From contig JAIQGD010000008.1 in the NCBI GenBank assembly GCA_020072765.1, positions 1-43,979 of the forward strand: a stretch of 43,979 nucleotides of DNA, in the 5' to 3' direction. This document shows positions 8,615-43,252 of this stretch, one piece after another. The notes under the pieces were generated by a model, which was not told where the DNA came from, did no database searches, and saw only the letters and a program-made list of their open reading frames with translations. Each line of letters begins with the position of its first letter. Position 1 is the stretch's first letter. Made by a program: the position numbers and the translations under genes. Origin of the DNA: Terriglobia bacterium. Its GTDB lineage: Bacteria > Acidobacteriota > Terriglobia > Acidiferrales > UBA7541.

Positions 8615-9085
8615 TCAGAAGACGCGGTGGCGGAGCAGCGGATGGAGGCGCGCGAGGGCTTCGGCGGCGTCGAAGGTGGTGGCGCCCGGCGCGACGCCGT
8701 GCGGGGCGAGCGCGGCGTGCGCGGCGTCCGAAATCGGTTTCTGCGCCAGCGGATGCGGCAGGGCCTCGAAGGCGGAGTCGTCCTCCAGCGCCAGGTGCAC
8801 GCCTTCGTCGGCGTCGATGAGGACGAGGATTTGCCGACGGTCTCCGTCGGCGGAAGTTGTAGCGGCGGCCTTCAGGCCGGCCGATCCGGACGTGGCGGCA
8901 CTGCTTGCTGCGCTCTCTTCCGCGGCGGCATCGGGGCCTGCGCTTCCGTCGGCAGCGGGCACGGCGTGCCGTGCCCCTACGGAGTCGTCGGGCGCGTCGA
9001 GCACGATGAAATGCGAGTTGGCGAAGCGCGCGGCGTGCTGTTGCCAGGCGCCGAACGTGGTCAGGTAGTAGCGTTTGCCAGTCAT
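8615..9085 (-). CDS. Conserved-looking phage protein with in-frame repeat insertions
   Basis: The 156-residue product begins 'YYLTTFGAWQQHAARFANSH' followed by 'FIVLDAPDD' and continues, after an Ala/Ser-rich middle, as 'RRQILVLIDADEGVHLALED'. The strand and helix pieces look like one small globular domain split by a ~45-residue insert. The insert DNA contains two repeat elements: a near-palindrome of family E (8957-8976, arms GGGCACGGC/GCCGTGCCC) and a GGCCTTCAGGCC-containing element (about 8861-8884). The reading frame is kept through both. No function was recognised; it sits between the Hint-domain tail gene and the GNAT gene. The start ATG at 9083-9085 has no strong ribosome site. Confidence 0.7.
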   Translation of the reverse strand: MTGKRYYLTTFGAWQQHAARFANSHFIVLDAPDDSVGARHAVPAADGSAGPDAAAEESAASSAATSGSAGLKAAATTSADGDRRQILVLIDADEGVHLALEDDSAFEALPHPLAQKPISDAAHAALAPHGVAPGATTFDAAEALARLHPLLRHRVF

Positions 9086-21176: not shown

Positions 21177-21869
21177 TCACTTCTTCGCGCTCAAGCCATG
21201 CTGCGCGGCCTTCTCGGCATCCAGAATCGCGCCGCAATGCTTGCAGACGGCGACGCCGGTCTTCACCTTCTCGCCGCACGCGGGACACTCGCTCAGACGC
21301 ATGGGGACGTAGGCCCACTCGCGCTCGACTCCCAGGGCGATGGCCGCGCGGCGATGCAGGTCGGAAATTTCGCGGAACGAATGCCCGCGCGCCCACAGCG
21401 TGTCGCCCTCGCCGATCAGACGATGATAATACGCATCGCGCCGCGCCGCTGCTGCGGAGAGTTCCTCGGCCGTGGGCCGAGGTCCGGCGCAGACGAAGAT
21501 GCCGTGGTCGTGCAGGTCCTGCAGGAGATCCTCGGCGATCTCGCGCGCGGAAATGGTGAAGGGGAAGCGGCGGTTGTCGCCCAGGTCAATGGCGTCGCCG
21601 CGCGAAGTGATCAGCAGCAGCGCGTAGGCCGGGCCGGAGCCGCCAGGCTCGCCGCCTGGGCTCCCGGCCTTGGGGCACGCAGGAATGTGGTAGAAGCCGT
21701 GCGTGCGGGACACGTACCAATCCTGCTCGGAAATCGAGGCGATCGCCACGGTCGCGGCCGTGTCGCCTTTCGGGCGCGTCTCCACCACAATGTCGCGGCG
21801 GCTCGCGCTCGCCGGCGCGGGCCCCGCGTGCGGGGTCTTCGTCGTTGTTGCTGTCAGTTCCGTGTGCAA
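21177..21869 (-). CDS. Phage-cluster protein with C-terminal zinc ribbon
   Basis: The ~230-residue protein has an unrecognised N-terminal region, a central globular part ('EQDWYVSRTHGFYHIPACPK', 'RREFTIS'-like segment 'RRFPFTISAREIAEDLLQDL'), a helical stretch, and a C-terminal zinc ribbon: 'CPACGEKV' and 'CKHCGAILD', two CxxC pairs 10 residues apart. The proposed start is a TTG at 21867-21869 with AAGGAAAC 8 nt upstream; further upstream the frame runs through a family B repeat. A fragment 'PKAGSPGGEPGGSG' may be repeat-derived. It probably belongs to the virion or to DNA/RNA handling, but no function can be named. Confidence 0.68.
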   Translation of the reverse strand: MHTELTATTTKTPHAGPAPASASRRDIVVETRPKGDTAATVAIASISEQDWYVSRTHGFYHIPACPKAGSPGGEPGGSGPAYALLLITSRGDAIDLGDNRRFPFTISAREIAEDLLQDLHDHGIFVCAGPRPTAEELSAAAARRDAYYHRLIGEGDTLWARGHSFREISDLHRRAAIALGVEREWAYVPMRLSECPACGEKVKTGVAVCKHCGAILDAEKAAQHGLSAKK

Positions 21870-22251
21870 GGAAGTTTCCTTTCGAACGTGATTAGTGATT
21901 GGCCTGCCCGCCGGAGCGCACCGCGCGTAGGCGGGTGATTGATCGAACGGTGGTGTAGCGGCCGCCTTCAGGCGGACGCTCTCTCGGGCGCTCGATCCGG
22001 GTGTCATTCCGGGGAGCGGAGCGCGGTGTATGCGCCCCGGCGCATTTTGTCGGGGCGACGAGGAATCCCTCTTCGTGTGCGCGCGCCGCCGGGGGCCAAA
22101 CCCAAGAGAGATCCCTCGCTCCGCTCGGGATGACAGCGCGCCTGTTTGGTTCACTACGCGTGCAGCTCACGGCTCGCGATGACCCCGCGGCAGCGGCCGC
22201 GCCGCCCGCGCGCCGCAAAGAACCTAACCCCTACTCCCTAAACCCTCGCCC
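21870..22251. other. Repeat-filled spacer with family B copy 6
   Basis: Holds a short forward heptad run (about 21886-21902), a GTAGCGGCCGCCTTCAGGCG element (about 21954-21973) like the one inside the gene at 8615-9085, the family B element at 22003-22135, and a variant reverse heptad array (about 22224-22260; units CTAACCC, CTACTCC, CTAAACC, CTCGCCC). The array gives the TAG of the next gene. No gene is seen. Confidence 0.78.
22003..22135. repeat. Family B palindromic element, copy 6
   Basis: Inverted relative to copy 4 and almost the same length, from GTCATTCCGGGGAGCGGAGC to CGCTCGGGATGACAG, with the inner CCCCGGCGCATTTTGTCGGG hairpin. Confidence 0.9.
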
Positions 22252-22866: not shown

Positions 22867-23583
22867 ATGACAACGATCGCAACGGCACGTCTGCGTGTGT
22901 TCGGATTGGCAACGGCCTTGGTGTTTGTTCTCGGCATGGGCACGGCTCAGGCGCAAACGGCGGGCTTTATTCGCGTGGTGACGGCGCAGGGAGCGCTCGA
23001 CGGCGCGTCGAAAGATCCCGCGTACCTGAAGTGGATTCCCGTGGCTTCCGTGGTGGCCGCCGATCTGAACGGCGATGCCGCGGCCGACCGCGAATCTTCC
23101 GCGCCTTCGGTTTCTGAAATCACTGTGGCGCGTGAGCACGGCTCCGGCATGGCCACTGGCAGAACGGAGAACATCGGCTCGCAAAGTTCAGGGGCCGGCG
23201 CGGGAAAGGCGTCCACCGGGGCCACGACGCTTCGCGAAAGTCCCACGCTGTCTTCCACCGGCAAGACGACGGTTCGCGAAAGCCCCACGATGGCGTCCAG
23301 CGGGCCGCGTGAAGTAGGGTCCGGTATGGCGACTGGGAAGCGCATGCACAAGCCGCTCACGATCATGAAGCAAGTCGACGTAAGTTCGCCCAACTTGCGA
23401 CAACTGCTGGTCACTGGAACGGCGATTCCCGAGGTGGACGTCGCGGTTGCGCAGGGCGGGGCCGGCATGCGGCGCTACGTGCTGCAGAACGTGATGGTCA
23501 CCTCGATTCAGAGCGTGTCGTCCGGGGGCGACCGGCCGATGGAATCGATATCGTTCACTTACCAGAAAATCGAGATGAAATAG
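22867..23583 (+). CDS. Secreted Hcp-family (type VI tube protein-like) protein
   Basis: The 238-residue protein has a signal peptide (about 1-30, 'ATALVFVLGMGTAQAQ'). Two halves of an Hcp1-type fold follow: 'AYLKWIPVASVVAADLNGDA' at 55-75 and 'KPLTIMKQVDVSSPNLRQLL', 'YVLQNVMVTSIQSVSSGGDR', 'ESISFTYQKIEM' at the end. Between them is a ~90-residue insert with near-repeats 'ATTLRESPTLSSTG' and 'KTTVRESPTMASSG' and two 'GSGMATG' blocks. Canonical Hcp is cytoplasmic and about 160 residues, so the export signal and insert are unusual. AGGAGG stands 6 nt before the ATG. An intrinsic terminator follows. No other type VI gene is in view. Confidence 0.82.
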   Translation: MTTIATARLRVFGLATALVFVLGMGTAQAQTAGFIRVVTAQGALDGASKDPAYLKWIPVASVVAADLNGDAAADRESSAPSVSEITVAREHGSGMATGRTENIGSQSSGAGAGKASTGATTLRESPTLSSTGKTTVRESPTMASSGPREVGSGMATGKRMHKPLTIMKQVDVSSPNLRQLLVTGTAIPEVDVAVAQGGAGMRRYVLQNVMVTSIQSVSSGGDRPMESISFTYQKIEMK

Positions 23584-24007: not shown

Positions 24008-25282
24008 TTAGTACCCCGTCGGGATGGCCAGGTTGTCGATGTAAGCGCCGGCGCGCGGCGCTTCATTCCACACCTGGAAGCCGGTGACGAAATAGAAGAT
24101 GTACGCCGCAGCGAGTCCTCCGCTGGCGCCGTAGATGGGGAACACGGTTTGCCCGCCGACATCGTAGAAGTCGATGTCCTGCATGACGGCGCGTCCCCAG
24201 TGCGACAGGTCGAGGAAATCCACGCGCGACTGATTGGCGTTGATGCTCGACATGATGGGCACGCCGGCCATGGACTTTTCGCCGGTGAACAGCAGGTCGA
24301 GGTCGCTGGCGCGCCCGCCCGCTCCCTCCTTGATGATCTGCGAGATGGTGACGCCGAGCTGCTCCCACTGGTGCTCCTGTTCGAGCGAGGTGTAGGCAAT
24401 CAGCTTGCTCACCTGGTTGCTGCCCAGCGCTTTGCGCACCTTGTTGATGGCCAGGCGCACCACGCCCGGCGTGAGCGCGGAGTTGCTGCCGTTGACGCGC
24501 GGCGTGGCCAGTTCCACCGGATAGGTCGCGCGGTTCAGGTTGAGCCACGTGCCGGTGGTGGCGTTGGACTGGTGGTAGAGGATGCCGAACAGCGACACGG
24601 GCGACGCGCCGGTGAGCCCGTCATGCACGATCACGTCGTTCACCGTGGTGCCCGCCGGCAACGTATCCACCTGAATCAGCGAATTGAACGGATCGACGAG
24701 CATGATGCTGGCCGAGCCGCGATTGGTCGTCAGCGTCGGGTCGTACACCTGCACAGTCTGGTTGTGGTAGAAGAGCTGCGCGCCGGGCGGCTTCGCCAGG
24801 GTGTACTGCGCGGCGACGCCGCCGGGCAGGCCCGTGGTGGTGATGGCGCTGATCGTGCCGAGCACGCCGTTGCCGTTGGTCTGCATCACCTTGTCGAGAA
24901 ACGCGCGGAACTGCGCCATGGCGTTCTTCACTTCGCGCTTGGCGGCGTTCTCGACGGCCTTATCGGGAGCGTTGCTGGCGTACTCGACCAGCTTGGAGAT
25001 TTCCACGGCGTGCCGGAAAAATACCGGCGTCACCTGGGCCACGTCGTAGATGGTGCCCGAACCGCGGCCCAGGTCGCCGCCGTCCATGTTGGCGAGACCC
25101 GCCTTGCCTCCCGGACGGATTTGCAGCGGGAGCCGCATGTTGCGGGCGCTGACGCGTTCCACGTCGCCGCGCTGCTGGATCATGGTCAGCAGGATGTCGT
25201 CCCGCTCGTACAGCAGCGGAAGTTTGTCGCGGACCTTTTCCAGTTGCAGCGCAACCGATTGCGCATTCTGCATCTGTGCCAT
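24008..25282 (-). CDS. Phage major capsid protein
   Basis: The 424-residue protein starts at the ATG at 25280-25282; GGGGG about 11 nt upstream may serve as ribosome site. Features of the HK97-fold capsid proteins used by P22-like and related phages are present. The N-terminal helix region is 'VALQLEKVRDKLPLLYERDD'. There is a long central part with 'RREVKNAMAQF'-type helix ('AAKREVKNAMAQFRAFLDKV'), an Asn/Thr-rich insertion region, and a C-terminal domain with 'KVRKALGSNQVSKLIAYTSL', 'QWEQLGVTISQIIKEG', 'LLFTGEKSMAGVPIMSS' and 'GFQVWNEAPRAGAYIDNLAI'. It follows the scaffold-like gene, the usual order. No repeat insertion interrupts it, unlike its neighbours. Confidence 0.88.
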   Translation of the reverse strand: MAQMQNAQSVALQLEKVRDKLPLLYERDDILLTMIQQRGDVERVSARNMRLPLQIRPGGKAGLANMDGGDLGRGSGTIYDVAQVTPVFFRHAVEISKLVEYASNAPDKAVENAAKREVKNAMAQFRAFLDKVMQTNGNGVLGTISAITTTGLPGGVAAQYTLAKPPGAQLFYHNQTVQVYDPTLTTNRGSASIMLVDPFNSLIQVDTLPAGTTVNDVIVHDGLTGASPVSLFGILYHQSNATTGTWLNLNRATYPVELATPRVNGSNSALTPGVVRLAINKVRKALGSNQVSKLIAYTSLEQEHQWEQLGVTISQIIKEGAGGRASDLDLLFTGEKSMAGVPIMSSINANQSRVDFLDLSHWGRAVMQDIDFYDVGGQTVFPIYGASGGLAAAYIFYFVTGFQVWNEAPRAGAYIDNLAIPTGY

Positions 25283-25455
25283 TGGATGTGTTTCCCCCTT
25301 GGATTGGAGTTCGTGTGGCACAGCCACTCCTGGCTGTGCTCTTCTACGGTGTGAAGGCGCGGCAAAATCCCTCCGCGCGATTCCTCTTCATGCGGGATGC
25401 ACACCCAAGAGTGCGTGTGCCACGGAGATGTCCTCTACGGACGGGTGAACAGGGA
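25283..25455. other. Spacer with family D and family F-like hairpins
   Basis: CACAGCCA-CTCC-TGGCTGTG (25319-25338) is a perfect 8-bp hairpin upstream of the capsid gene, the inverse of the copy at 1996-2015. A weaker ACACCCAAGAGTGCGTGTGCC follows at about 25401-25421. Confidence 0.75.
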
Positions 25456-26757
25456 TTACAAATTCAAAATATCGGCGTCGGAGAGGCGCGCGTAATCCAG
25501 GTCGCGCGGGGCGATCGAGCGGCGGCCGTCGTTCGCAGCTCCGCCGGACCCGGCAATATCGACGCGGCGCTCGGCGGCGCGCTGGCGGGCGCGGCGATCG
25601 TGGCTCGCGGCGACGATCGTCGAGGTCCACTCGCCCAGGACGCGCTTGGCCACGCCCGGCAGCGCCTGCTTGGCGCGGCCCGTGAGCAGCGACACGACGG
25701 CGCGCTGATGCGCGGCGTCGAGAGCGCCGGAACGGAACGCCTCGCGCATCTGCTGCGCGAGCTGGCGATTGGATTGCAGCGACGCGTCGAGTTCGCGGTA
25801 GATTTCGCGCACCACGCGCTGGTGCGCGCTGGTGGAAATTCCCTCGGGCAGCAGGCGCTCGACTTGCGTCTCGATGGCCTCGAGCACGCCCTGCACCGCC
25901 GCGGCGTTCGCCGCATGGAAGAACTCCGCCTGCGCAGGGGTGACGCCGCTCACATTCCTCGCGGTGTCATCCCGAGCGTCGCGAGGGATCTCTCTTTCCT
26001 GCGCGGGCTCGGTATCGTGTGCAGCCGAAGAGGGATTTCTCGTCGCTCCGCTCCTCGGAATGACATCTGGCGGGTTGGCGGTCCGCGATTGCGGGTCCGA
26101 AGCGGGCACGGTCCCGCGTGGTCCGCGGGATGCCCCAACGGCGTCAGCCGCGTTCGCCGCGCCGGAGGCTGCAGCAGCGCCGTCGTTGCCTGCCTCCGTG
26201 CTTCCCTGCCTCGCTGCGTTGTTTCCTCTGTGTCTCTGCGCCTCGGTGGCCAACCCATTCATGGCCTGCGCGAGCGATGCGAACGCCTCGGGATCGAGGC
26301 CGGCGACGGCGCGCGCCAGTTCCGCGTGGTCCTCAGGGCGGCGCGAGAAGAACAGCGCGTCCATGCGGTCGAGGTCGGCGAGCAGCGCAGTGGCGGCGCG
26401 CGCCTCGTCCGGCGTGGCGAACGTCTCGCGGTATGCCTCCGCCTCGTCCCACGCGCGGCGCAACTCCGGGTGCGCCTCGAACGCCGCGCGCAGTTGCTCC
26501 GGCTCGGCGGGCACATCACGCGATTCCTCGCCGCTCGTAGGCGCCACTTCATCGCCTTGCTGTAGGGGCACGGCACTGCCGTGCCCGGAATCCGCCTCGG
26601 CGGTCACGTCGGGCGCGGTTCCGCGTGCCTTGCGGGATGCCCCCATGGGCGAAGTTCGCGGAGCGGCACTGGCGAGGCCGAGAATTTCGTCGTCGGTCGC
26701 GTGCCGGCTAGGCGGCGCGGGCGCAGTTTCCGGGGTCGTTTGCAGCGTAGTGGCCAT
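25456..26757 (-). CDS. Scaffold-like phage head protein carrying several in-frame repeats
   Basis: The 433-residue product is highly charged, Ala-rich and largely helical, as scaffolding proteins are. 'TDDEILGLASA' opens it, 'QLRAAFEAHPELRRAWDEAE' and 'EDHAELARAVAGLDPEAFAS' are helical, 'AEFFHAANAAAVQGVLEAIE' and 'RVVREIYRELDASLQSNRQL' form the core, and 'RDLDYARLSDADILNL' ends it. Its position between portal and capsid genes supports the call. At least five stretches come from repeats without breaking the frame: about 26620-26645 and 26109-26135 (GCGGGATGCCCC type, 'GASRKARG' and 'GASRGPRG'), 26566-26586 (family E), about 26222-26252 ('ATEAQRHRG') and 25966-26065 (family B, 'VIPRSGATRNPSS...'). 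GAGG precedes the ATG at 26755-26757. Confidence 0.78.
   Translation of the reverse strand: MATTLQTTPETAPAPPSRHATDDEILGLASAAPRTSPMGASRKARGTAPDVTAEADSGHGSAVPLQQGDEVAPTSGEESRDVPAEPEQLRAAFEAHPELRRAWDEAEAYRETFATPDEARAATALLADLDRMDALFFSRRPEDHAELARAVAGLDPEAFASLAQAMNGLATEAQRHRGNNAARQGSTEAGNDGAAAASGAANAADAVGASRGPRGTVPASDPQSRTANPPDVIPRSGATRNPSSAAHDTEPAQEREIPRDARDDTARNVSGVTPAQAEFFHAANAAAVQGVLEAIETQVERLLPEGISTSAHQRVVREIYRELDASLQSNRQLAQQMREAFRSGALDAAHQRAVVSLLTGRAKQALPGVAKRVLGEWTSTIVAASHDRRARQRAAERRVDIAGSGGAANDGRRSIAPRDLDYARLSDADILNL
25966..26065. repeat. Family B element inside a coding region (copy 7)
   Basis: GTCATCCCGAGCGTCGCGAG ... CTCCTCGGAATGACA lies wholly within the scaffold-like gene and adds about 33 codons in frame. 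Confidence 0.92.
26562..26586. repeat. Family E palindrome inside a coding region
   Basis: GGGCACGGCA-C-TGCCGTGCCC with GTAG before it. The 25-nt stretch is identical to 31672-31696 in the terminase gene. It encodes 'GHGSAVP' here. Confidence 0.92.
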
Positions 26758-26765
26758 GGAGAATC

Positions 26766-26985
26766 CTCGTGAGTGGTCAGTAGTGATTAGTGATTAGTGA
26801 TCGGTGAGCAGTGATTAGTGGCGAGCCTGCCCGTGGAAGCGCGAAGCGCCGAGGAGCGTGACTCGTGAATTGTGATTCGTAACTCGTGCCGAGGTTTTGT
26901 GGCGGCCGGTCCCGCGAAGCGGCACCTGGCATGCTCTTGCTAGGCTTTTCCCTATTCCCTATCCCCTACGACCTACGCCCTCTTC
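26766..26985. repeat. Heptad arrays between portal and scaffold genes
   Basis: Forward GTGAGTG/GTGATTA units (26769-26823) and GTGACTC/GTGATTC units (about 26858-26890). Variant reverse units CCCTATT/CCCTATC/CCCTACG (26949-26985) supply the TAG of the portal gene (stop at 26973). Confidence 0.82.
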
Positions 26986-29492
26986 CCCGCTGGCGACGCG
27001 CTTCCCTGCTGCGCCTGAACCTGCTGCTTGCGCAAATAATCGCGGTGGAACATCGCGTGGGCGCGGACGTTGGCGTAGCCCGCCGGGGCTTCGATCTTGG
27101 CCACCTGGCCGGCATCGGAGGAAAACCAGCGCATGCACGTCTCCAGTTCGACGGCGTGATTGTCCGCGAATTCATCGGGCACGATGCTGGGCAGCATCAG
27201 TTCGATACCGGTGGCATCGTGCCGCTGCGCGATCGGCGCTTCGGCGACCAGTTGCGCGATTTCGCGGTACTGCTTGGTGCGCGATTCCTCGTCGGGGACG
27301 ACGAACTCCTCCAACCCGATCAGCCGCTTCAGCAGTGCCATGTTGTCTGGATGCGCCAGCACGGCCTGAATCTGCGGGTCGGGGCTGCCCAGCAATTGCA
27401 GCAACACGCCGCGCTGCTGCGACCACAGCGTCGGGTACTGCTCGTCGGTCTCGGGATAGCTGAAGAGATTGCCCTTCAAATCCGCCAGGCGAATCCATTT
27501 CGATTCGAACGCGGAGCCCGCCCCCAGCAGCGTCACTTCGACGTCGTGAGGGCGGTTTCGGCGGAAGCAATCGACGGCCAGCAGCATGAGGTCCGCGTGG
27601 AAGAATTTCATGCGCCGCCAGACCAGCCCGATGCGGCCCATGGCCTGGTCGCGCGCCATGGAGTAGCCCGCGGCCGTGTCCGTGTTGGTCATCGAGCCGC
27701 CGAACAGCGCCGGAAACGCGCCGGTGAGGAATTGCGCCACCGGGCCCATAAGGTTCGCGGCGTGTTGCGCGAGGTCGGGCGGGACTTCCGCCGCGGCCGG
27801 CTGAAAAAATCCCGCCGCGAGCGATTGTCCCGGCTTGGCCCGCGCGGGATAGTGCGCGCCGGGCTCGGCGGTCTGATTCTGCAGCGAATCGAAGTCGAGG
27901 ACTTCGCTATCGGCGTAAATCGGCGGGATGCCGTACTCGTAGGTCTCGATCTGTAAGTTCGAAAGCGTATTAAAACGCTCCTGCACGCTGATCAGGACGT
28001 CGCCCAGCCCCGGCCGCCCGCTCGATCCGTCGCCGGGCAGCGCGTGCAGGACGCGCCAGTGGTCATCCATGTTTTCGTTGCGCGCTTCGCAGTAGGCGTC
28101 GCCGGCCAGCGCGACGTAGGCGCCGTCGGGAAACAGTTGCAGCAGCTCGTCGCGCAGCGTTTTATCCTCCAGCGCGAAAAACGCCCAGGGGCGCAGCCAC
28201 GTCCTCTGGAAGGTGATGAGGTTGCTGTTGAAGTCGCCGCCCTCGGTCAGCGGGCCGCCCTGCGATTGCGCCAGCCGCGCCAGGCGCTCGTACTGCTGGC
28301 CGCTGGTGGCCACCGGCGCGCCGATCTTTTCGGCGGCGTGCGGATAGGCCGCGCGCAGCCGCGCCTGGTGCACCTCCATGTTCCATTGCAGGTAGGGATA
28401 CTCGTGCATCTCGCCGGCCCACGGCGGAGTCTTCAGCTCCAGCCCGCCGACGATGGTGATCACTTCCTGGCCGTTGGGCACGCGCAGCCGCGTTTCCGCC
28501 GCGGGAACCGTCACCGTCTCGGCCGCCACGAAGTCTTCTTCCGTCAGCAGCGCGCCGCAGTTGGAGCAGGGGTGAGGCGTGAAGGATGAGGTGTGAGGGG
28601 TGTGGGATGAAGGCTGAGCGTCGTCGGCCGAGGCGTTTTGGTTTTCTCTTCCCCCTCGCCCCTGCTCTTCCGCCCCGCACTCCGGACACACATACGCGTC
28701 GCTTCCAATCCGCACCTCCCGCGCGGCGATTTCGCTTTCGGGATGGAATCCGAAGCGCTGGCCGTCCACCACGAAGCGCACGTACGCGCCCACTTTGCCG
28801 CCGGTCCACAGATTGAACGCCTCGTCCACAATCAAGTTTCCGATGCGGTTGTTGCGCTCGACCAGCGAGGCTACTTCCGTGGCGGCCTTGGCCGCGGCGA
28901 CGTCCTCTTCGGCCTGCGCCGAAGAGGGAAAGAAGCGCACGTGCGGCACATCCTGCGAAAGCACGGAGATCAGCGAAAGCCCGAACGCCTGATAGATGTT
29001 GGTGACGAATTCATAGCGCGGCAGGTCCTCGAGCGACGCGTTGTCGGCGATCTTCTGCTCGAAGGGCAGGTGCCAGTTCTGGTCGCGCTCGTTCCACCAG
29101 AGATATTGCAGGCCGCGCCAGAACTGGTGCGCCTGCTTGATGCGGCGAATCTCCTGCCGGCGCGAAGCCTCCGACTCGGTGGAGAACTGCTGCACCAGCC
29201 GCCGCAGCGCCTCCTGCAGCCGCTCGGGCAACTGCTCGTTGTTCACCCCGTAGGCGCCGGCGTCCGCGCTCGCGGTTTCTGACGCCGGCGTCTGGCTGGA
29301 CTTCTCGCCTGCGTTGTCATCCCGAGCGGAGCGAGGGATCTCTCTTCGCTGTGCGGCCACGCGATCGTGTGCCGCCGAAGAGGGACTCCTCGTCGTGCCG
29401 CTCCTCGGAATGACACCGTGCGCGGGTTGCGCCGGCCCTTCGACGGGCACAATCGCGCCGTCGGCCTTGGGAAACTTCGTCTGAGTAGGCAT
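26973..29492 (-). CDS. Phage portal protein with inserted zinc ribbon
   Basis: The 839-residue product fits large P22-type portals: helical 'HQFWRGLQYLWWNERDQNWH' (122-141), 'YEFVTNIYQAFGLSLISVLS' (160-179), 'PHVRFFPSSAQAEEDV' (183-198), 'EAFNLWTGGKVGAYVRFVVD' (224-243), 'TNTDTAAGYSMARDQAMGRI' and a helical C-terminus. The portal is the dodecameric DNA gate of the capsid. Two CxxC pairs, CPEC (269-272) and CSNC (309-312), make a zinc ribbon whose loop contains a 7-nt-period array (about 28569-28619). Near the N-terminus residues 26-60 are encoded by a family B element (29316-29415). Both insertions keep the frame. It is followed by the scaffold and capsid genes. Confidence 0.88.
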   Translation of the reverse strand: MPTQTKFPKADGAIVPVEGPAQPAHGVIPRSGTTRSPSSAAHDRVAAQRREIPRSARDDNAGEKSSQTPASETASADAGAYGVNNEQLPERLQEALRRLVQQFSTESEASRRQEIRRIKQAHQFWRGLQYLWWNERDQNWHLPFEQKIADNASLEDLPRYEFVTNIYQAFGLSLISVLSQDVPHVRFFPSSAQAEEDVAAAKAATEVASLVERNNRIGNLIVDEAFNLWTGGKVGAYVRFVVDGQRFGFHPESEIAAREVRIGSDAYVCPECGAEEQGRGGRENQNASADDAQPSSHTPHTSSFTPHPCSNCGALLTEEDFVAAETVTVPAAETRLRVPNGQEVITIVGGLELKTPPWAGEMHEYPYLQWNMEVHQARLRAAYPHAAEKIGAPVATSGQQYERLARLAQSQGGPLTEGGDFNSNLITFQRTWLRPWAFFALEDKTLRDELLQLFPDGAYVALAGDAYCEARNENMDDHWRVLHALPGDGSSGRPGLGDVLISVQERFNTLSNLQIETYEYGIPPIYADSEVLDFDSLQNQTAEPGAHYPARAKPGQSLAAGFFQPAAAEVPPDLAQHAANLMGPVAQFLTGAFPALFGGSMTNTDTAAGYSMARDQAMGRIGLVWRRMKFFHADLMLLAVDCFRRNRPHDVEVTLLGAGSAFESKWIRLADLKGNLFSYPETDEQYPTLWSQQRGVLLQLLGSPDPQIQAVLAHPDNMALLKRLIGLEEFVVPDEESRTKQYREIAQLVAEAPIAQRHDATGIELMLPSIVPDEFADNHAVELETCMRWFSSDAGQVAKIEAPAGYANVRAHAMFHRDYLRKQQVQAQQGSASPAGKRA
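28569..28619. repeat. Heptad array inside the portal gene
   Basis: Units TGAGGCG, TGAAGGA, TGAGGTG, TGAGGGG, TGTGGGA, TGAAGGC in 7-nt register. On the coding strand it reads as 'SSHTPHTSSFTPHP' between the two zinc-binding CxxC pairs. Confidence 0.75.
29316..29415. repeat. Family B element inside the portal gene (copy 8)
   Basis: Complete element with both ends (GTCATCCCGAGCGGAGCGAG / CCGCTCCTCGGAATGACA) in the N-terminal coding region, translated as 'VIPRSGTTRSPSSAAHD...REIPRSARDDN'. Confidence 0.93.
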
Positions 29493-29555
29493 TCGTTTCT
29501 CGCTTCGGGGATTTGGCGTGATTCGCTGCGGCCGTTCTGATATTTTGGCCTCACG

Positions 29556-29774
29556 ATGGGACGCCGGAGGGACGAACCGATACGCGCCACGACGCGTCAG
29601 CGCGTCAGCATTGTCCTGTTTGGGCTAATGCTTATGCTGCCCGGATTGCTGGCGTTGGTTCAGGGAAAACTGGAATATCAAGACCACCGGGGCCTGGTTG
29701 TCTTCGCCCCTTTCGGCTTGCTGGTCGGAGTCGTGCTGATTGTTCTCGCCATCCGCGTCGGACGAGCACGCTGA
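29556..29774 (+). CDS. Small two-helix membrane protein
   Basis: The 72-residue frame has a basic N-terminus (MGRRRDEPIRATTRQR), a hydrophobic helix 'VSIVLFGLMLMLPGLLALV' (about 17-36), a charged loop 'QGKLEYQDHRG', and a second helix 'FAPFGLLVGVVLIVLAIRV' (about 51-69), obeying the positive-inside rule. It is divergent from the portal gene (63 nt apart). No ribosome site is obvious and no family recognised. Base composition and the clear two-helix hairpin suggest a real gene of chromosomal type. Confidence 0.55.
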   Translation: MGRRRDEPIRATTRQRVSIVLFGLMLMLPGLLALVQGKLEYQDHRGLVVFAPFGLLVGVVLIVLAIRVGRAR

Positions 29775-29810
29775 CTCATCCGTGGCGCAATGCAAAGCGG
29801 CTACCGCGCA

Positions 29811-29902
29811 TGGCGCCGGGGCCTTTAGCCCGCCAGGTGTTGAGCACGAGGAAGGCCGAGACGTGCCGCGCTGAAGTCCGCGGCGCTACACAAACATCTT
29901 CG
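29811..29902. repeat. Divergent family C element, copy 5
   Basis: GGCGCCGGGGCCTTTAGCCC ... CCGCGCTGAAGTCCGCGG ... CGCTACACAAACATCTT. The middle differs from other C copies, so it is an older or chimeric copy. A variant heptad run (CCCTATC/CCCCTAC, 29988-30020) then leads into the stop of the next gene. Confidence 0.75.
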
Positions 29903-30012
29903 CGCGGCGCGCCAGGCACTCGTCACGAGCCACTTCTTAGCAACGCGGGGCGAAGGGATTGGCGTGCGGCGCGCCGCCGCAACCTACACCCTATCCCCCT
30001 ACCCCCTGCGAC

Positions 30013-30438
30013 CTATCTTTTCCCCAGCTCGTTGTGCAGAAAATTCACCAGGTCGTGATGATCGGAGAAGACGTGCGTCTCGGCGTGCGACGGCAGGCCC
30101 GGGCGCGCTGCGGAGTGCGATGCGGCTCCGGCGCCCCCGCCGTGCGCCTCCGCGGCCGGAAAGCGGTGGACACGCGCCACAAATCCGCGCGCCGCGCGCC
30201 CGGAATGCGACGGCACCATCTCGGCCGCCTCGATTTCGACGCGATGCACCGGACCGTGTCCGGCGCCCACGGGATCGCTCGCGTGAGGGCTGGCAAACCC
30301 GTCGGCCTGGTCGTGCGGCGCGCCGTGCGATCCGTGCTCGGCTTCCAGAGCGTGCAACGCCGCTTCCGCTTCCCGCGCGGCTTCCAGCGCCTCGCCCATC
30401 ACCGGATTGATGTGATAACTCCCGCGAATGAATGGCAT
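30013..30438 (-). CDS. Phage protein with 'MPF..G...INP' N-terminal motif
   Basis: The 141-residue protein begins MPFIRG...INPVMG...EAAR. That matches the first 22 residues of the hydrolase at 6536-7171 at 11 positions (M1, P2, F3, G6, I10, N11, P12, G15, E19, A21, R22). A His/Ala-rich linker follows, then 'PVHRVEIEAAEMVPSHSGRA' and 'RGFVARVHRFPAAEA', then a helical tail 'DHHDLVNFLHNELGKR'. GGAGG stands 6 nt before the ATG at 30436-30438. It sits between the coiled-coil protein gene and the portal gene. The function is unknown. A virion-incorporation tag or shared docking segment is one reading of the motif. Confidence 0.72.
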   Translation of the reverse strand: MPFIRGSYHINPVMGEALEAAREAEAALHALEAEHGSHGAPHDQADGFASPHASDPVGAGHGPVHRVEIEAAEMVPSHSGRAARGFVARVHRFPAAEAHGGGAGAASHSAARPGLPSHAETHVFSDHHDLVNFLHNELGKR

Positions 30439-30451
30439 GGTTTCCTCCAGA

Positions 30452-30534
30452 AGAGAGTGGCTGGTGACGACTGGCGGGAAAAAGCGTAGCCGGGGTTTTC
30501 ACTAGCCACAAGCCGCTAATCACTAGCCACTGTT
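30452..30534. repeat. Paired heptad arrays
   Basis: Forward AGTGGCT/GGTGACG units (30455-30475) and reverse ACTAGCC/ACAAGCC/ACTAATC units (30500-30533). The reverse part encodes the end 'VASD-stop' of the next gene. Confidence 0.82.
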
Positions 30535-31025
30535 TTTCGCGCTGATTCGAATTCCAACATGCGAGTGATCTGTTGCCACGACCGCCGCCGCATCGGCGTG
30601 ATGGCGTCCGGGCGCGGTTTCCGCCGTGCCCCTTCGCCCGTCGCACCGTGAGGGGCTTGCGCGCCGGAGGCGTCGACTTCGATGTCCTCCGCCGCCAGCC
30701 CGCCCTCATTCCGTAGGGGCACAGCGCCGCTGTGCCCGGCCTGTGCGGTGGCGCGACCGTCGGGCGCAGCGCCGACGTTCATGACGTTCGTAGGGGCGCT
30801 GCTTGCTGCGCCCCGGCTCGGGGCAACATCCGGCAAGTCCACCGGAATCGGCGGAATGCCGGCAATGCCGAGAATGGAATTGAGCAGCGCGCGATTCTCG
30901 CCGCGCAGCCGCGCAATCTCCGCGCCCTGCCGGACAATTTCAGCGCCCTGCCGCGCGACTTCCGCTTCCAGCCGGCGCGTGTACCGCGTCGCCGTCATGC
31001 GCAGCCACATCTCACGAATGGTCAT
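30516..31025 (-). CDS. Coiled-coil phage protein with in-frame family E repeats
   Basis: The 169-residue product begins with a helix containing the heptad-like repeat 'AEVARQGAEIVRQGAEIARL' (about 20-39) and 'ENRALLNSILGIAG', a short coiled coil. A low-complexity middle follows. Its DNA holds two family E-type hairpins: 30717-30737 (GGGCACAGC-GCC-GCTGTGCCC) and 30793-30814 (GGGGCGC...GCGCCCC). The basic C-terminus 'RRRSWQQITRMLEFESARK' could bind nucleic acid or another head protein. GAAGGGA precedes the ATG at 31023-31025. The last residues (VASD) and TAG come from the heptad array. It lies directly after the large terminase; the function is unknown. Confidence 0.7.
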   Translation of the reverse strand: MTIREMWLRMTATRYTRRLEAEVARQGAEIVRQGAEIARLRGENRALLNSILGIAGIPPIPVDLPDVAPSRGAASSAPTNVMNVGAAPDGRATAQAGHSGAVPLRNEGGLAAEDIEVDASGAQAPHGATGEGARRKPRPDAITPMRRRSWQQITRMLEFESARKTVASD

Positions 31026-31134
31026 AGTTCCCTTCCGTTTCGCCGCCCAGACACAGAGTCACGGAGAAAGACAGCCATGCTTACCCGGTGCCCCCCGCAG
31101 TTCCCTGTGCCTCCGCGCCTCTGTGGCCGATGCC

Positions 31135-32829
31135 CTACCGCCTGCGGCGGAGGAACGACACGGGATGCGCGCCGCGCGTTTCCTCGACCATCGCCTTGCG
31201 CGCCTGGATGGCGCGAATCGTAGGATCGTCGGACAGTACGCGCGCGGCCAGCCGCTCGGCGAGCGGCCGGTGGTCCGGGGCGTCGCGGCGGACGCCGTAG
31301 CGCGATTTCAACCCGTAGCGCGCGGCGTCGGCGGCGTCGTCACCGTCCATCTTCTCGACGTCCTCGACGCGCGCCGCATCGCGCACCAGGTTGGGCAGCG
31401 TGCGGATCAGCTCGGCGCAATTCTCGGTGAGGAGCCATTCGCCGCCGTCGAGCATTTGATACATCAGCATCCAGCCGCCGATGCGGTCATCGTCGGCGGG
31501 CACCGGACGCGGTAGGCCCGCCGCGGCGAAGACGTCGCCCATCTGCTCGGCGATCGATGCTTCGTCGGTGCGGCGCGCAAACGCGTCGGGCGAAAGATAA
31601 ATCGCGTCGATGCGCTCGCGCGCGCCGCTTGCATTCTCTGCGTTGTCATCCATCGCGCCGGAGTGTGTTCCGTAGGGGCACGGCACTGCCGTGCCCGCGG
31701 CTCTGTCGCCGGTCGCGCTCCGATCCGCCTCGGAGTGACGTGCGCTGTGTACGCTGCGCCGGACAATCTCCCGCGCCAACTCGCGCGGCGGCGTGCGGTG
31801 CGTCACGTATTCGCGATACGTGACGACGGGGTTCGTGGCACAGGCACTCTTGCCTGTGCGCTCTTCGCCCTTGTCCGGGTCACTGATCGCCGCATCGGAC
31901 TGGGTCGCGCAGCCAGGAGTGGCTGCGCCACGCGGCACGGCCGCGTGCCAGTAGACCGCCGCGGGATGCTCGAAGCCCCAGTCCATCGAAATCCAGCGCG
32001 GCCACCACGGCTTCCAGTCGATTTCTTCGGCGCGCGCGACGTGCCGCGTGAAATCAAAGCGGTCGAAATACTGCCCGGCGAAGACTTCCCAGTCGCCGTC
32101 CAGAAACGCGCGCTTCAGATGCGACGGCAGCGCGCGCAGCGTCTTCAGATATTGCTCATCGGCGGCGTAAATCGGATTGTCGGAAACGCGCGCGGGAATG
32201 AAATCGTAGTCGGCGGGGTCGTACGCCGCGGGATCTTCCATGCCGGGCGCGGGCCGCTTGTCGATCCACAGCGACTTCACCCAGGCGTGGCCGATGTTGC
32301 CGGGATTGGTGGCGCCGGCCATCGAGGGAAACGCCCCGGGCACGGGACACCGGTTGCGGCTGGTAAGGAATTGCCACTGGCGCAGGGTAAACAGCGTCAG
32401 CTCATCAATGCCGATGAACAGCAACTCGGCGCCCTGGTACTGATAGACGTCGCTCTCCGACAGGCAGTAGCCGAAGCGCGTCGTCGAGCCGTTCCACCAC
32501 GTCACCAGGTGCTTGGACTCGTGGAAGCTCTGGTACAGCTCGCGCGGAATGTCGCGGCGAAAATAGAGCAGCAGCGATTGCTCGAGTTCGGGAAACGTGC
32601 GGCGCAGCAGCAGCGTGTTCGCGCCGGCGTGCTCGTGCGCCTGCAGGACCGCCTCCATCAGCAGCGCCTTGGATTTGCCCGGGCCCGCCGCCCCGCCGAA
32701 CAGGCGATACTTCGCCGGCGAGGCGTGAAATTGCTGCTGCTTGGCGAACGGCTGGTAGCCCAGCTCGATGCGCCGCGCGCGCGTCTCGTCCTCCGCCCAG
32801 CGCTCGAAGCCCGATCTGATCGTCACCAT
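31135..32829 (-). CDS. terL: Phage terminase large subunit with repeat-derived insertions
   Basis: The 564-residue protein has an N-terminal packaging ATPase: adenine-binding 'YQPFAKQQQFHAS' (25-37), Walker A 'GGAAGPGKSK' (45-54), Walker B 'ELLFIGIDE' (135-143) and coupling motif 'GATNPGN' (172-178). The C-terminal RNase H-like nuclease starts at 'ISMDWGFEHPAA' (Asp283) and ends with 'DGDDAADAARY' (Asp497/498). It cuts and pumps concatemeric DNA into the head through the portal. Two segments of the nuclease domain (residues 298-334 and 361-404) are encoded by palindromic repeats and lie between core beta-strands ('AVYWHA' to 'VVTYREYVTH', and 'VRRS' to 'RIDAIYLSPD'). All ATPase motifs are intact. 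The repeats fall in what should be surface loops, so activity may be retained. Confidence 0.92.
   Translation of the reverse strand: MVTIRSGFERWAEDETRARRIELGYQPFAKQQQFHASPAKYRLFGGAAGPGKSKALLMEAVLQAHEHAGANTLLLRRTFPELEQSLLLYFRRDIPRELYQSFHESKHLVTWWNGSTTRFGYCLSESDVYQYQGAELLFIGIDELTLFTLRQWQFLTSRNRCPVPGAFPSMAGATNPGNIGHAWVKSLWIDKRPAPGMEDPAAYDPADYDFIPARVSDNPIYAADEQYLKTLRALPSHLKRAFLDGDWEVFAGQYFDRFDFTRHVARAEEIDWKPWWPRWISMDWGFEHPAAVYWHAAVPRGAATPGCATQSDAAISDPDKGEERTGKSACATNPVVTYREYVTHRTPPRELAREIVRRSVHSARHSEADRSATGDRAAGTAVPCPYGTHSGAMDDNAENASGARERIDAIYLSPDAFARRTDEASIAEQMGDVFAAAGLPRPVPADDDRIGGWMLMYQMLDGGEWLLTENCAELIRTLPNLVRDAARVEDVEKMDGDDAADAARYGLKSRYGVRRDAPDHRPLAERLAARVLSDDPTIRAIQARKAMVEETRGAHPVSFLRRRR
31618..31749. 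repeat. Repeat-derived insert 2 in terL (family E palindrome)
   Basis: Contains GGGCACGGCA-C-TGCCGTGCCC at 31676-31696. With the preceding GTAG it is identical over 25 nt to 26562-26586. It adds about 44 codons in frame. Confidence 0.85.
31828..31938. repeat. Repeat-derived insert 1 in terL (families F and D)
   Basis: Contains a family F near-palindrome (31838-31859, GCACAGGCA...TGCCTGTGC) and a family D hairpin (31908-31927, CGCAGCCA-GGAG-TGGCTGCG). It adds about 37 codons in frame. Confidence 0.85.
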
Positions 32830-35061: not shown

Positions 35062-35519
35062 GAGTCTCTCCGGCGGGGATTAGTGATTGGTGATTCGTGA
35101 TCGGTGATTGGTGAGGAGTGGCTAGTGACGGACCTGCCCGCCGCGGGGCGCAAGGGCTCTCCGGGACACAGACGGGGTACGAACGATGGCGCTTTTCGGC
35201 GTTGCGACGTGGCGGGAGAGCGGGCTGCCTTCTCGCACTCTTCGAGGATAACGAGAATACTTATACACTAAGTCGCCATTCTTTGCAAGTGCTTGTTGGT
35301 GTAAACAATTGTCGCCCAAGGCGCCGATCCGCGCTGTTGGCGTCTCGCGGGCTTTTGGGGAACGACCAGGATCGGCGCCCCGAGCGCGACCAAGGCCAGC
35401 GAGGAACCTGCTGTCGCGTTTGCTGTCTGCGTGGTTTGGGTTCCGCACGTTGTTGCCGGACAACGTTTTGCCCCAGGCGCACTGCGGTGCCCGCGCGCCA
35501 GTTCAGCTATACTGGCGCG
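35062..35519. other. Spacer between virion island and lgt
   Basis: The left part is a forward heptad array (about 35079-35128: GTGATTG, GTGATTC, GTGATCG, AGTGGCT). The right ~390 nt are non-repetitive. No convincing gene is seen in any frame. TATACT at 35508-35513 lies 6 nt before the lgt ATG and could be a -10 box of a leaderless transcript; no good -35 box is visible. Confidence 0.6.
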
Positions 35520-36338
35520 ATGCTGCCCTTTCTGCATCTGGGTCCGCTGACCATCCCGACCTACGGCCTGATGGTGGCCCTGGGGATGGTGGCGGGGTAT
35601 TACATGCTGGCCGCCGACCTGGCGCGGCGCGGCATCGCCGCGAAGGAGTCCGGCGTGGCCGAGATGTTCGTGGCCATTCCGTGCCTGGCAGGAATTATCG
35701 GCGCGAAGATTTACAGCGTGCTGGAATCGCCCCGCGAGTTGTTTGCCGACCCGCTGGGCCAGATTTTCAGCCGCTACGGGCTTACATGGACGGGCGGGCT
35801 GATCGCCGGCGTGGCGACGTTCCTCTGGCTGGCGCGGCGCAAGAAGATCCCGCTGCTCGACATGCTCGACGCGGGCTCGCCGGGCCTGGCGCTGGGCTAC
35901 GCCTTCGGGCGCATGGGCTGCCTGCTCTCCGGCGACGGCGATTACGGCGTTCCGACTTCCCTGCCCTGGGGCATGAGTTTTCCCAACGGGCTGGTGCCCA
36001 CCACCGAGCGCGTCCATCCCACGCCCATTTACGAGATCCTCGGCGCGTGCGCCATCGCCTGGCTGCTGTGGCGGCGCGGCGCGCGGCAAGTGGCGCAATC
36101 GAAGGCTCGGAGCGAACTGCGTTCCGCGTCTCCCGAGCGCGGCGCGTGGCTGGCGCCGACGCTGGCGCGCGGCAGCGTCTTCGCGGCCTACCTGGTGCTG
36201 ACCGGCGTGGCGCGCTTTCTGGTCGAGTTCATCCGCATCAATCCCCGTGTGCTCTTCGGCCTGACCAACGCGCAGATCGCCAGCGCTGCGTCCATCGTGG
36301 GCGGCGCCGCCCTGTGGCTGGTCCGCTGGCGGGATTAG
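35520..36338 (+). CDS. lgt: Prolipoprotein diacylglyceryl transferase
   Basis: The 272-residue integral membrane protein transfers diacylglycerol from phosphatidylglycerol to the lipobox Cys of prolipoproteins in the inner membrane. Seen here are the N-terminal 'LGPLTIPTYGLMVALGMVAG', 'YGLTWTGGLIAGV' (first Arg/His region), the signature 'GYAFGRMGCLLSGDGDYG' (family: GRxGNFxNGExxG), 'ERVHPTPIYEI' (family: HPTQLYE) and a late 'ARFLVEFIRIN' helix. The length is usual for the family. The ATG at 35520 has no ribosome site but has a TATACT box immediately upstream. It is the first clear housekeeping gene right of the phage cluster. Confidence 0.95.
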   Translation: MLPFLHLGPLTIPTYGLMVALGMVAGYYMLAADLARRGIAAKESGVAEMFVAIPCLAGIIGAKIYSVLESPRELFADPLGQIFSRYGLTWTGGLIAGVATFLWLARRKKIPLLDMLDAGSPGLALGYAFGRMGCLLSGDGDYGVPTSLPWGMSFPNGLVPTTERVHPTPIYEILGACAIAWLLWRRGARQVAQSKARSELRSASPERGAWLAPTLARGSVFAAYLVLTGVARFLVEFIRINPRVLFGLTNAQIASAASIVGGAALWLVRWRD

Positions 36339-42196: not shown

Positions 42197-43252
42197 ATGG
42201 GGGATACTGCGAAATCGTTGGAAGCTGGCAGGACGGGACGCCGGTCCAAGCTGCTGACCCTGCCCAGTGCGGCCCAGCGGCACGGGTCCGCTTCCGGCGG
42301 GGAGTCCCCGGAGGGCGAGAGCAGCGCGTCGTCGGTGCTGCGCGAATCGCGCCCCACCCGCCACAGGTCTGCCGACCTGGCCACCGAGCGCCGCGTCAGC
42401 GAGCGCGTGTGGGTTTCGGCGCGCGTGCGCGTGCGCGCCATGCGGGACGCCGAGGGCGGCCCGGACGAATTCGGCACCACCCTGAACGTCTCCCGCACCG
42501 GCTTCCTGTTCAAGAGCCAGCCGGACACGTTTACCCTGGGGATGCCCGTGCGCGTGACCTTTCCCTATGTTCCCGGCTCTGCCCAGCCGCAGGCCGAGCG
42601 ATCCGGCTGCGTGGTGCGCGTCAGCAATCTTCCCGACGGCAGCTGCACGGTGGCGGTGGCCTTGGCGTCGCTGGGCCAAGGACGGACGCGGACGCCCGCA
42701 GCGAAACACGTCCCTTCGGCGACCGATCCGCACGCGCCCGCCCCGGAGAAACCGGTCATCCTGGCCGTGGACGCCGATGCAGTCGTCCGGGCGTCCGTGA
42801 AGAAGCATTTGGGTGAGCTGGGCTACAAAGTGATCGCAACCGGCAGTTGCGCCGAGGCGGCCGAGCTGCTGCGCGGCCTCACCCCGGCGGTCCTGCTGGT
42901 GGATCCCGGGGTTCCGGCCGAGGAAGAAGACCGGCCCGGCCTGCATCTGTGCCGGCAAATCCAGTGCGATCCGCGCCTGCGCAGCGTTCCGCTCATGCTG
43001 CTGCTGTCGGAGAGCTGCGAGGGAGATTGCAGCGATGGGCGTACGACGGGCGCCGTCGTGCGCTTGTCGAAACCCTGCGGGGTCGACCGCCTCGGTTACG
43101 TCGTGCGACTAGTCGCTCCCCTGCCGCACGACCGGCAACACGACCCGTTGCTGGCCGCCGCGCACCCAGAACCCCACGCGCGTGACGCGTCCGCCAGTGC
43201 CGCCCCGTCGTCCGGAACCGCCCGCCCCTCCCGCCGCTACTGGCTGTTCTGA
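42197..43252 (+). CDS. PilZ domain plus receiver domain protein
   Basis: The 351-residue protein has a disordered start, then a PilZ domain (about 62-160) with both c-di-GMP motifs: R-x-x-x-R as 'RVSER' (Arg66, Arg70) and N-x-S-x-x-G as 'NVSRTG' (97-102). A linker leads to a receiver domain (about 186-305). It contains 'VILAVDADAVVRAS' (acidic pair reduced to Asp192 and neighbours), the phosphoacceptor candidate Asp236 in 'VLLVDPGVP' and Lys292 in 'VRLSKPCG'. The Pro/Ser tail is disordered. AGGAG stands 8 nt before the ATG. It probably couples c-di-GMP to a phosphorelay; no output domain is present. A GC-rich leader (about 42085-42185) with inverted stretches precedes it. Confidence 0.88.
   Translation: MGDTAKSLEAGRTGRRSKLLTLPSAAQRHGSASGGESPEGESSASSVLRESRPTRHRSADLATERRVSERVWVSARVRVRAMRDAEGGPDEFGTTLNVSRTGFLFKSQPDTFTLGMPVRVTFPYVPGSAQPQAERSGCVVRVSNLPDGSCTVAVALASLGQGRTRTPAAKHVPSATDPHAPAPEKPVILAVDADAVVRASVKKHLGELGYKVIATGSCAEAAELLRGLTPAVLLVDPGVPAEEEDRPGLHLCRQIQCDPRLRSVPLMLLLSESCEGDCSDGRTTGAVVRLSKPCGVDRLGYVVRLVAPLPHDRQHDPLLAAAHPEPHARDASASAAPSSGTARPSRRYWLF

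Follow-up and report, generated by a model that had tools for sequence, protein, structure and literature searches.

In-frame palindromic repeats in variable linkers of terminase, portal-like and scaffold-like genes of an acidobacterial phage-like module

We examined a 43,979 bp window of DNA (66% G+C) that is an entire contig (C21; GenBank JAIQGD010000008.1) of a Terriglobia bacterium, and which carries a phage-like structural module at about positions 8000-35100. Five genes of this window that have homologues, including those for the large terminase (TerL), a portal-like protein and a scaffold-like protein, contain a total of nine in-frame copies of palindromic repeats (Table 1). Two of the copies belong to a family designated B, five to a family designated E, and two to a family designated D/F. 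In-frame repeats had been proposed from an earlier reading of the sequence alone, and all the elements it named were found, with small corrections to their coordinates. We consider it probable (about 0.8) that the inserts represent tolerated, near-neutral insertion of chromosomal palindromes into a phage-like module that is vertically inherited, with selection on the proteins as the filter. The source genome (3.78 Mb, about 97% complete, of which the contig makes up 1.2%) is that of a soil member of the Acidobacteriota, and its relatives are acidobacterial metagenome-assembled genomes, several of them called Candidatus Acidiferrales.

The three families differ in anatomy, and all are dispersed in the source genome, with 33 B matches, 59 E copies and 30 D/F copies. 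Inverted termini (GTCATYCC...GGAATGAC) bound the 99-nt element of family B, whose copies in the portal-like and scaffold-like genes are 86% identical. It has the terminal inverted repeats of a miniature inverted-repeat transposable element (MITE; GTCATYCCGAG...CTCGGAATGAC), as well as the anatomy of Rickettsia palindromic elements (RPEs), which are self-complementary, about 100-150 nt long, and occur both in spacers and in frame within genes. We therefore call B RPE-like or MITE-like in anatomy and claim membership in neither class. Family E is a GTAG-tagged hairpin (GTAGGGGCACGGCACTGCCGTGCC and variants) with the features of GTAG-type repetitive extragenic palindromes (REPs), namely a palindrome of 20-40 nt and an unpaired GTAG at one end. 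Families D and F, which the sequence-only reading had listed separately, are both present in terL but proved to be variants of a single family (consensus GGCRCAGSCACTCYTGSCTGYGC) that differ by paired base swaps; the two variable stem positions pair in 30 of 30 copies from the same genome (A-T/G-C and C-G/G-C swaps). Since the palindromes of D and F in terL carry no GTAG tag, we term them only REP-like hairpins. As a control for specificity, reversed patterns were searched in the same genomes, giving no matches for B and D/F and a single E match in 61 genomes, none of it in the source genome. D/F copies were absent from 17 of the 19 other genomes of the genus that were searched, and the remaining two (G001 and G018) had 1-3 copies. 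Of 27 host D/F copies, a partly sensitive codon-composition test on host genes picked out three; one of these (L218) lies just ahead of the apparent start of a glucokinase gene, and the remaining two are unconvincing.

The inserts occupy a particular part of the proteins. Alignment of the TerL (51 sequences), portal-like (35) and scaffold-like (35) proteins, those of the window included, places every insert of the three genes inside a length-variable linker between conserved anchors (Table 1; in the scaffold-like protein the N-terminal linker spans 38-100 amino acids (aa) and the C-terminal linker 3-118 aa). These linkers make up 15% of the sequence when repeats are left out, and the probability that all six inserts of the three genes would fall in them is about 1e-5. 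Homologues showed the same preference: counting a segment as repeat-bearing if it matches three or more other dispersed places, 24 of 198 homologue linkers carried repeats vs 9 of 990 core segments of equal length (odds ratio 15, Fisher P = 6e-13).

TerL identity is secure, and the best Foldseek match of its AlphaFold model (mean predicted local distance difference test score, pLDDT, 80.5) is the D6E large terminase (5oe8, E = 1e-19). In this model, pLDDT falls below 50 at residues 309-316 and 321-330 of loop 1, which is flanked by strands at 290-297 and 335-343, and at residues 373-401 of loop 2, which lies between helices at 348-368 and a strand at 409-412. The TerL inserts thus sit, as modeled, in nuclease-domain loops between core strands and helices. 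The earlier proposal that the repeats encode loops between core secondary structures therefore holds for TerL; the portal insert lies in an N-terminal linker and, as far as testable, not between core elements. Portal identity is likely, given the position of the gene after terL and one weak portal profile match of a single relative (phrog_156, 6.7e-5), and the putative scaffold label derives solely from the position of that gene between the portal-like and capsid genes.

Repeats also recur in linkers of related modules. In genome G018 a D hairpin occupies the TerL loop that holds D in the window, in reversed orientation, and the TerL linker of G001 (locus L011) contains GTAG repeats of the VGAGLKPAPT type. 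B-like peptides (SAQDD, CAQHD, IPRSARDD and VIPSEARNLSS) occur in TerL, portal-like zinc-ribbon or scaffold-like linkers of loci L029, L031, L116, L137 and L146; the zinc-ribbon linker of the portal-like protein bears B-like inserts in relatives L031, L064, L116 and L146, and heptamer-like repeats are found in linkers of L021 and L133. The matching linkers of relatives are short or bear other repeats. Because repeats are all but absent from several closely related modules, we regard the inserts as lineage-specific additions. The same residues in repeat-free relatives would have spoken against an origin from repeats, and such relatives have short or unrelated residues at these places.

We then considered how the module is inherited. 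It is flanked by host genes, with lgt and genes for a histidine kinase and a response regulator to one side and a MacB-like gene to the other. At most 5 kb separate terL from lgt in the window and in six other genomes (G001, G003, G009, G017, G018 and G026), and the two genes are near one another in three IMG/VR contigs (L030, L037 and L051); in G004, G033 and G023 they are 43-900 kb apart. Across 17 genomes, TerL identity correlated with Lgt identity (r = 0.78; 0 of 5000 permutations), a set that supersedes an initial comparison of ten loci, one of them truncated (r = 0.33). This correlation indicates that the module was inherited vertically with its host. Among those module genes that were scanned, none was recognised as an integrase or replication gene. 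Based on the lgt adjacency, the TerL-Lgt correlation and the lack of a recognised integrase, the module appears to be an old chromosomal resident and not obviously an active phage, and it is perhaps a gene transfer agent (GTA). The description of the repeat-bearing genes as virion genes is accordingly to be narrowed: they are structural and packaging genes, with portal and scaffold names that are putative, in what we interpret as a vertically inherited, GTA-like chromosomal module. The three IMG/VR contigs are called viral, with lgt beside the module in each and the histidine kinase gene as well in two; they are probably chromosomal fragments, since host genes adjoin the module. In G002 (locus L252), portal-like, scaffold-like and capsid genes are near lgt and terL was not found, an apparent loss; in other relatives no terL at all was detected.

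Repeats are as dense in the host-gene flanks of the contig as in the module. Enrichment on the contig is 7- to 60-fold for pairs of a further repeat, A (GTAGCGCCG...), for (AGTGRYN)n heptamer arrays and for B and E, and it includes the surroundings of lgt and the histidine kinase gene. The contig accounts for 13 of the genome's 32 A repeats and 17 of 24 heptamer-array matches, and it carries 5 of the 59 E copies and about 7 of the 12 B copies of full length. Because the host-gene flanks are equally dense, the contig is a regional repeat hot spot, and the density does not belong to the phage-like genes as such; what sets them apart is their tolerant linkers. The same comparison weakens the idea that the phage-like module itself draws repeats. 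We regard as doubtful a proposal in which a GTA-like module passed down vertically within Acidiferrales would be a preferred landing ground, where chromosomal palindromes repeatedly create linkers of the motor, portal and scaffold and thereby remodel the particle proteins.

Alternatively, the repeats could act as DNA or RNA hairpins along the late operon (in attenuation, mRNA stability or cleavage, or chromosome structure), the coding copies being by-products. Predicted hairpins are strong, with RNA folding of four of five tested inserts (the portal copy of B, E and D/F) 4-6 standard deviations lower than that of shuffled sequences (z = -6.0 for B in the portal-like gene and -4.0 for E; the scaffold copy of B is weaker, z = -2.2). 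D/F stems covary, and A, B and heptamer repeats crowd the spacers throughout the contig. However, modules of the same type exist nearly free of repeats, the flanking host genes are no less repeat-dense, and repeat positions differ between relatives. We consider it unlikely that such a role explains the inserts.

Intact reading frames had been taken as an argument for selection on the proteins, which overstated their weight. The repeats are mostly free of stops in any frame (D/F in 6 of 6 frames, E in 5 of 6, B in 4 of 6), so that an intact frame alone is weak evidence. The E inserts use phases 0, 1 and 2 as well as both orientations, and B is read twice in one same frame, in the portal-like and scaffold-like genes. 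The two B copies within genes measure 99 nt, vs 96-98 nt in seven further aligned copies, a difference that is suggestive of selection for frame, and common descent of the two genic copies may be an alternative cause of their shared length. Selection on the cores is clearer. Against the eight nearest homologues, ratios of nonsynonymous to synonymous change (pN/pS) were 0.21-0.31 for TerL, 0.16-0.22 for the portal-like protein and 0.38-0.46 for the scaffold-like protein. The TerL alignments show no variation at the ATPase and nuclease residues. The cores are thus under purifying selection, which is demonstrated for the cores only. G+C at the three codon positions was 0.67/0.47/0.86 in the TerL core vs 0.64/0.70/0.67 in the B copy of the portal-like gene, and insert codons lack the contrast seen in cores. 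Since they lack this contrast and since frames and orientations are mixed, the inserted residues look tolerated, with selection presumably acting on the surrounding protein.

These data also bear on whether the inserts supply useful peptides, that is, whether repeats were selected as ready-made linker modules that lengthen or diversify the loops of motor and assembly proteins. About a dozen other loci took repeats in the same linkers, and the B frame is identical in two genes; yet B has four open frames, which makes two copies sharing a frame weak evidence. Moreover, a single site uses different families, frames and orientations, coding composition is missing from the inserts, and close relatives manage without them, leaving this explanation distinctly improbable. 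Decay of the module, with frames open by chance in G+C-rich sequence, has little to recommend it: the 66% G+C and stop-poor repeats do make open frames likely, and relatives lacking terL, among them G002 with its other module genes, would fit, but pN/pS is far below 1, the ATPase and nuclease residues are conserved, and terL, the portal-like gene and the capsid gene are full-length, so that the genes are not pseudogenes.

In the reading we favor, that of tolerated insertion, E, D/F and B palindromes would multiply in the host chromosome and be transposed or copied into genes of the phage-like module. Survivors would be stop-free, frame-preserving insertions that landed in disordered hypervariable linkers, and those retained would add nearly neutral residues; the others would be eliminated by purifying selection acting on the cores of the TerL, portal-like and scaffold-like proteins. 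Several observations weigh against this reading. No target-site duplication was visible around B at nine full-length copies. The source genome has two Y1-type transposase genes (on contigs C65 and C49), and A or E repeats lie within about 1.5 kb of neither. The AlphaFold model of the portal-like protein is unusable (mean pLDDT 43), and a search of a phage database with this poor model gave no match. Linkers vary also in related modules with almost no repeats, and repeats would therefore be one source of linker growth but not the sole one. Translation of the proteins with their inserts is presumed.

Linkage of E to a REP-associated tyrosine transposase (RAYT) was considered, and none was found beside the two Y1_Tnp genes of the genome. 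Both Y1 transposase genes adjoin other palindromes. At the one on C65, two copies of a different palindrome (GTTAGCCCAACCC..GGGTTGGGC) lie alongside (L198, 1170 and 1308), likely the cognate REP of that transposase.

Table 1. Repeat inserts, the genes and linkers that contain them, and neighboring genes in the window.
Feature	Positions	Strand	Details
B in portal-like gene	29316-29414	-	99 nt; VIPRSGTTRS...REIPRSARDD
B in scaffold-like C linker	25966-26064	-	99 nt; VIPRSGATRN...REIPRDARDD
D copy of D/F hairpin, TerL loop 1	31837-31859	+	repeat match and hairpin fold
F copy of D/F hairpin, TerL loop 1	31907-31929	-	repeat match and hairpin fold
E in TerL loop 2	31672-31695	+	peptide GTAVPCPY
E in scaffold-like N linker	26562-26585	+	peptide GHGSAVPL; frame differs from that of TerL E
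E in gene 30516	30713-30741	+	E-family match
E (GTAGGGGCGCTGCTTGCTGCGCC subtype) in gene 30516	30790-30817	+	E-family match
E in gene 8615	8958-8980	-	DSVGARHAVPA; opposite orientation relative to gene
terL, large terminase, 564 aa	31135-32829	-	phrog_979 E = 5e-40; phrog_2 1e-31; D, F and E inserts
TerL hypervariable loop 1	31828-31944	-	39 aa here, 6-74 aa in homologues
TerL hypervariable loop 2	31615-31752	-	46 aa here, 3-54 aa in homologues
Portal-like gene, 839 aa	26973-29492	-	homologues in 103 loci; gene order; B in N-terminal linker
Portal-like N-terminal hypervariable linker	29253-29432	-	60 aa here, 8-60 aa in homologues
Portal-like zinc-ribbon linker, hypervariable	28560-28673	-	zinc ribbon CPECG...CSNCG
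Scaffold-like gene, 433 aa	25456-26757	-	homologues in 55 loci; B and E inserts
Conserved gene of unassigned function (gene 30516)	30516-31025	-	homologues in 73 loci; two E hairpins
Gene 8615	8615-9085	-	homologues in 2 loci; one E hairpin
Major capsid-like gene	24008-25327	-	NF033394 E = 2e-8, under cut-off; phrog_14242 9e-4
lgt	35118-36338	+	PF01790 E = 1e-43; synteny; position common to several relatives

Other features were noted around the module. A partial B copy (22056-22134) is in frame at the start of an open reading frame at 21177-22154, and probably lies upstream of the true start, because the best homologue matches only further downstream. A D/F copy (25317-25339) overlaps the start of the major capsid-like gene, which is adjoined by an oppositely oriented Hcp-like (type VI secretion) gene (22867-23583; PF05638, 9e-19). 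Between the portal-like and scaffold-like genes of several relatives lies a PilZ/response-regulator gene on the opposite strand (L030 at 13.6k, L099 at 8.4k, L100 at 9.3k and L104 at 8.3k), with the same arrangement at 14.6k of L118 (minus strand); this intervening gene is related to positions 42197-43252 of the window.

Intragenic REPs and RPEs have been published already; what is new here is the gene class and the recurrence. GTAG/CGTC REPs inside open reading frames encode extra residues, with loops and linkers proposed as REP-tolerant sites and REPs at about one recB site in two Xanthomonas species (Di Nocera et al., 2013; PMC3733652). The repeats described here resemble those intragenic REPs in that short GTAG palindromes are dispersed, some within open reading frames. 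The REP-bearing genes named in that work are repair, replication and other cellular genes, whereas those described here are packaging and assembly genes belonging to a phage-like module, and the non-GTAG families B and D/F insert likewise. RPEs are palindromes of about 100 nt found in Rickettsia spacers and in frame in conserved proteins, and enzyme activity was kept in the one RPE-bearing protein tested, guanylate kinase (PMC2229807). The parallel that had been drawn to these coding palindromes applies to in-frame insertion, in a host that, as proposed, is unrelated to Rickettsia. It does not extend to a dedicated coding palindrome, as here several unrelated families insert and E does so in several frames and both orientations. 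The Correia element of Neisseria (107 bp) and ERIC/RU-1 are small, MITE-like inverted-repeat elements whose open frames have become fused with genes (PMC2229807); unlike these, B has no visible target duplication, and no related transposase was found here, in an analysis in which no search was aimed at a parent element. As for the module, it resembles gene transfer agents of Alphaproteobacteria in being a phage-like structural cluster that is apparently kept vertically in the chromosome. Palindromic repeats within a terminase or portal gene were not reported in the open-access literature that we searched, where absence is not proof.

Taken together, in-frame repeat insertion is not restricted to Rickettsia or to cellular enzymes, in that terminase, portal-like and scaffold-like proteins tolerate it repeatedly and from unrelated families. 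The inserts chart tolerant loops on packaging proteins and, with D/F nearly private to the source genome, record that the module has resided in one particular host lineage. They also offer a natural test of how non-coding repeats turn into protein. Lastly, the apparently vertically inherited phage-like module of these Acidobacteriota merits study as a possible gene transfer agent.

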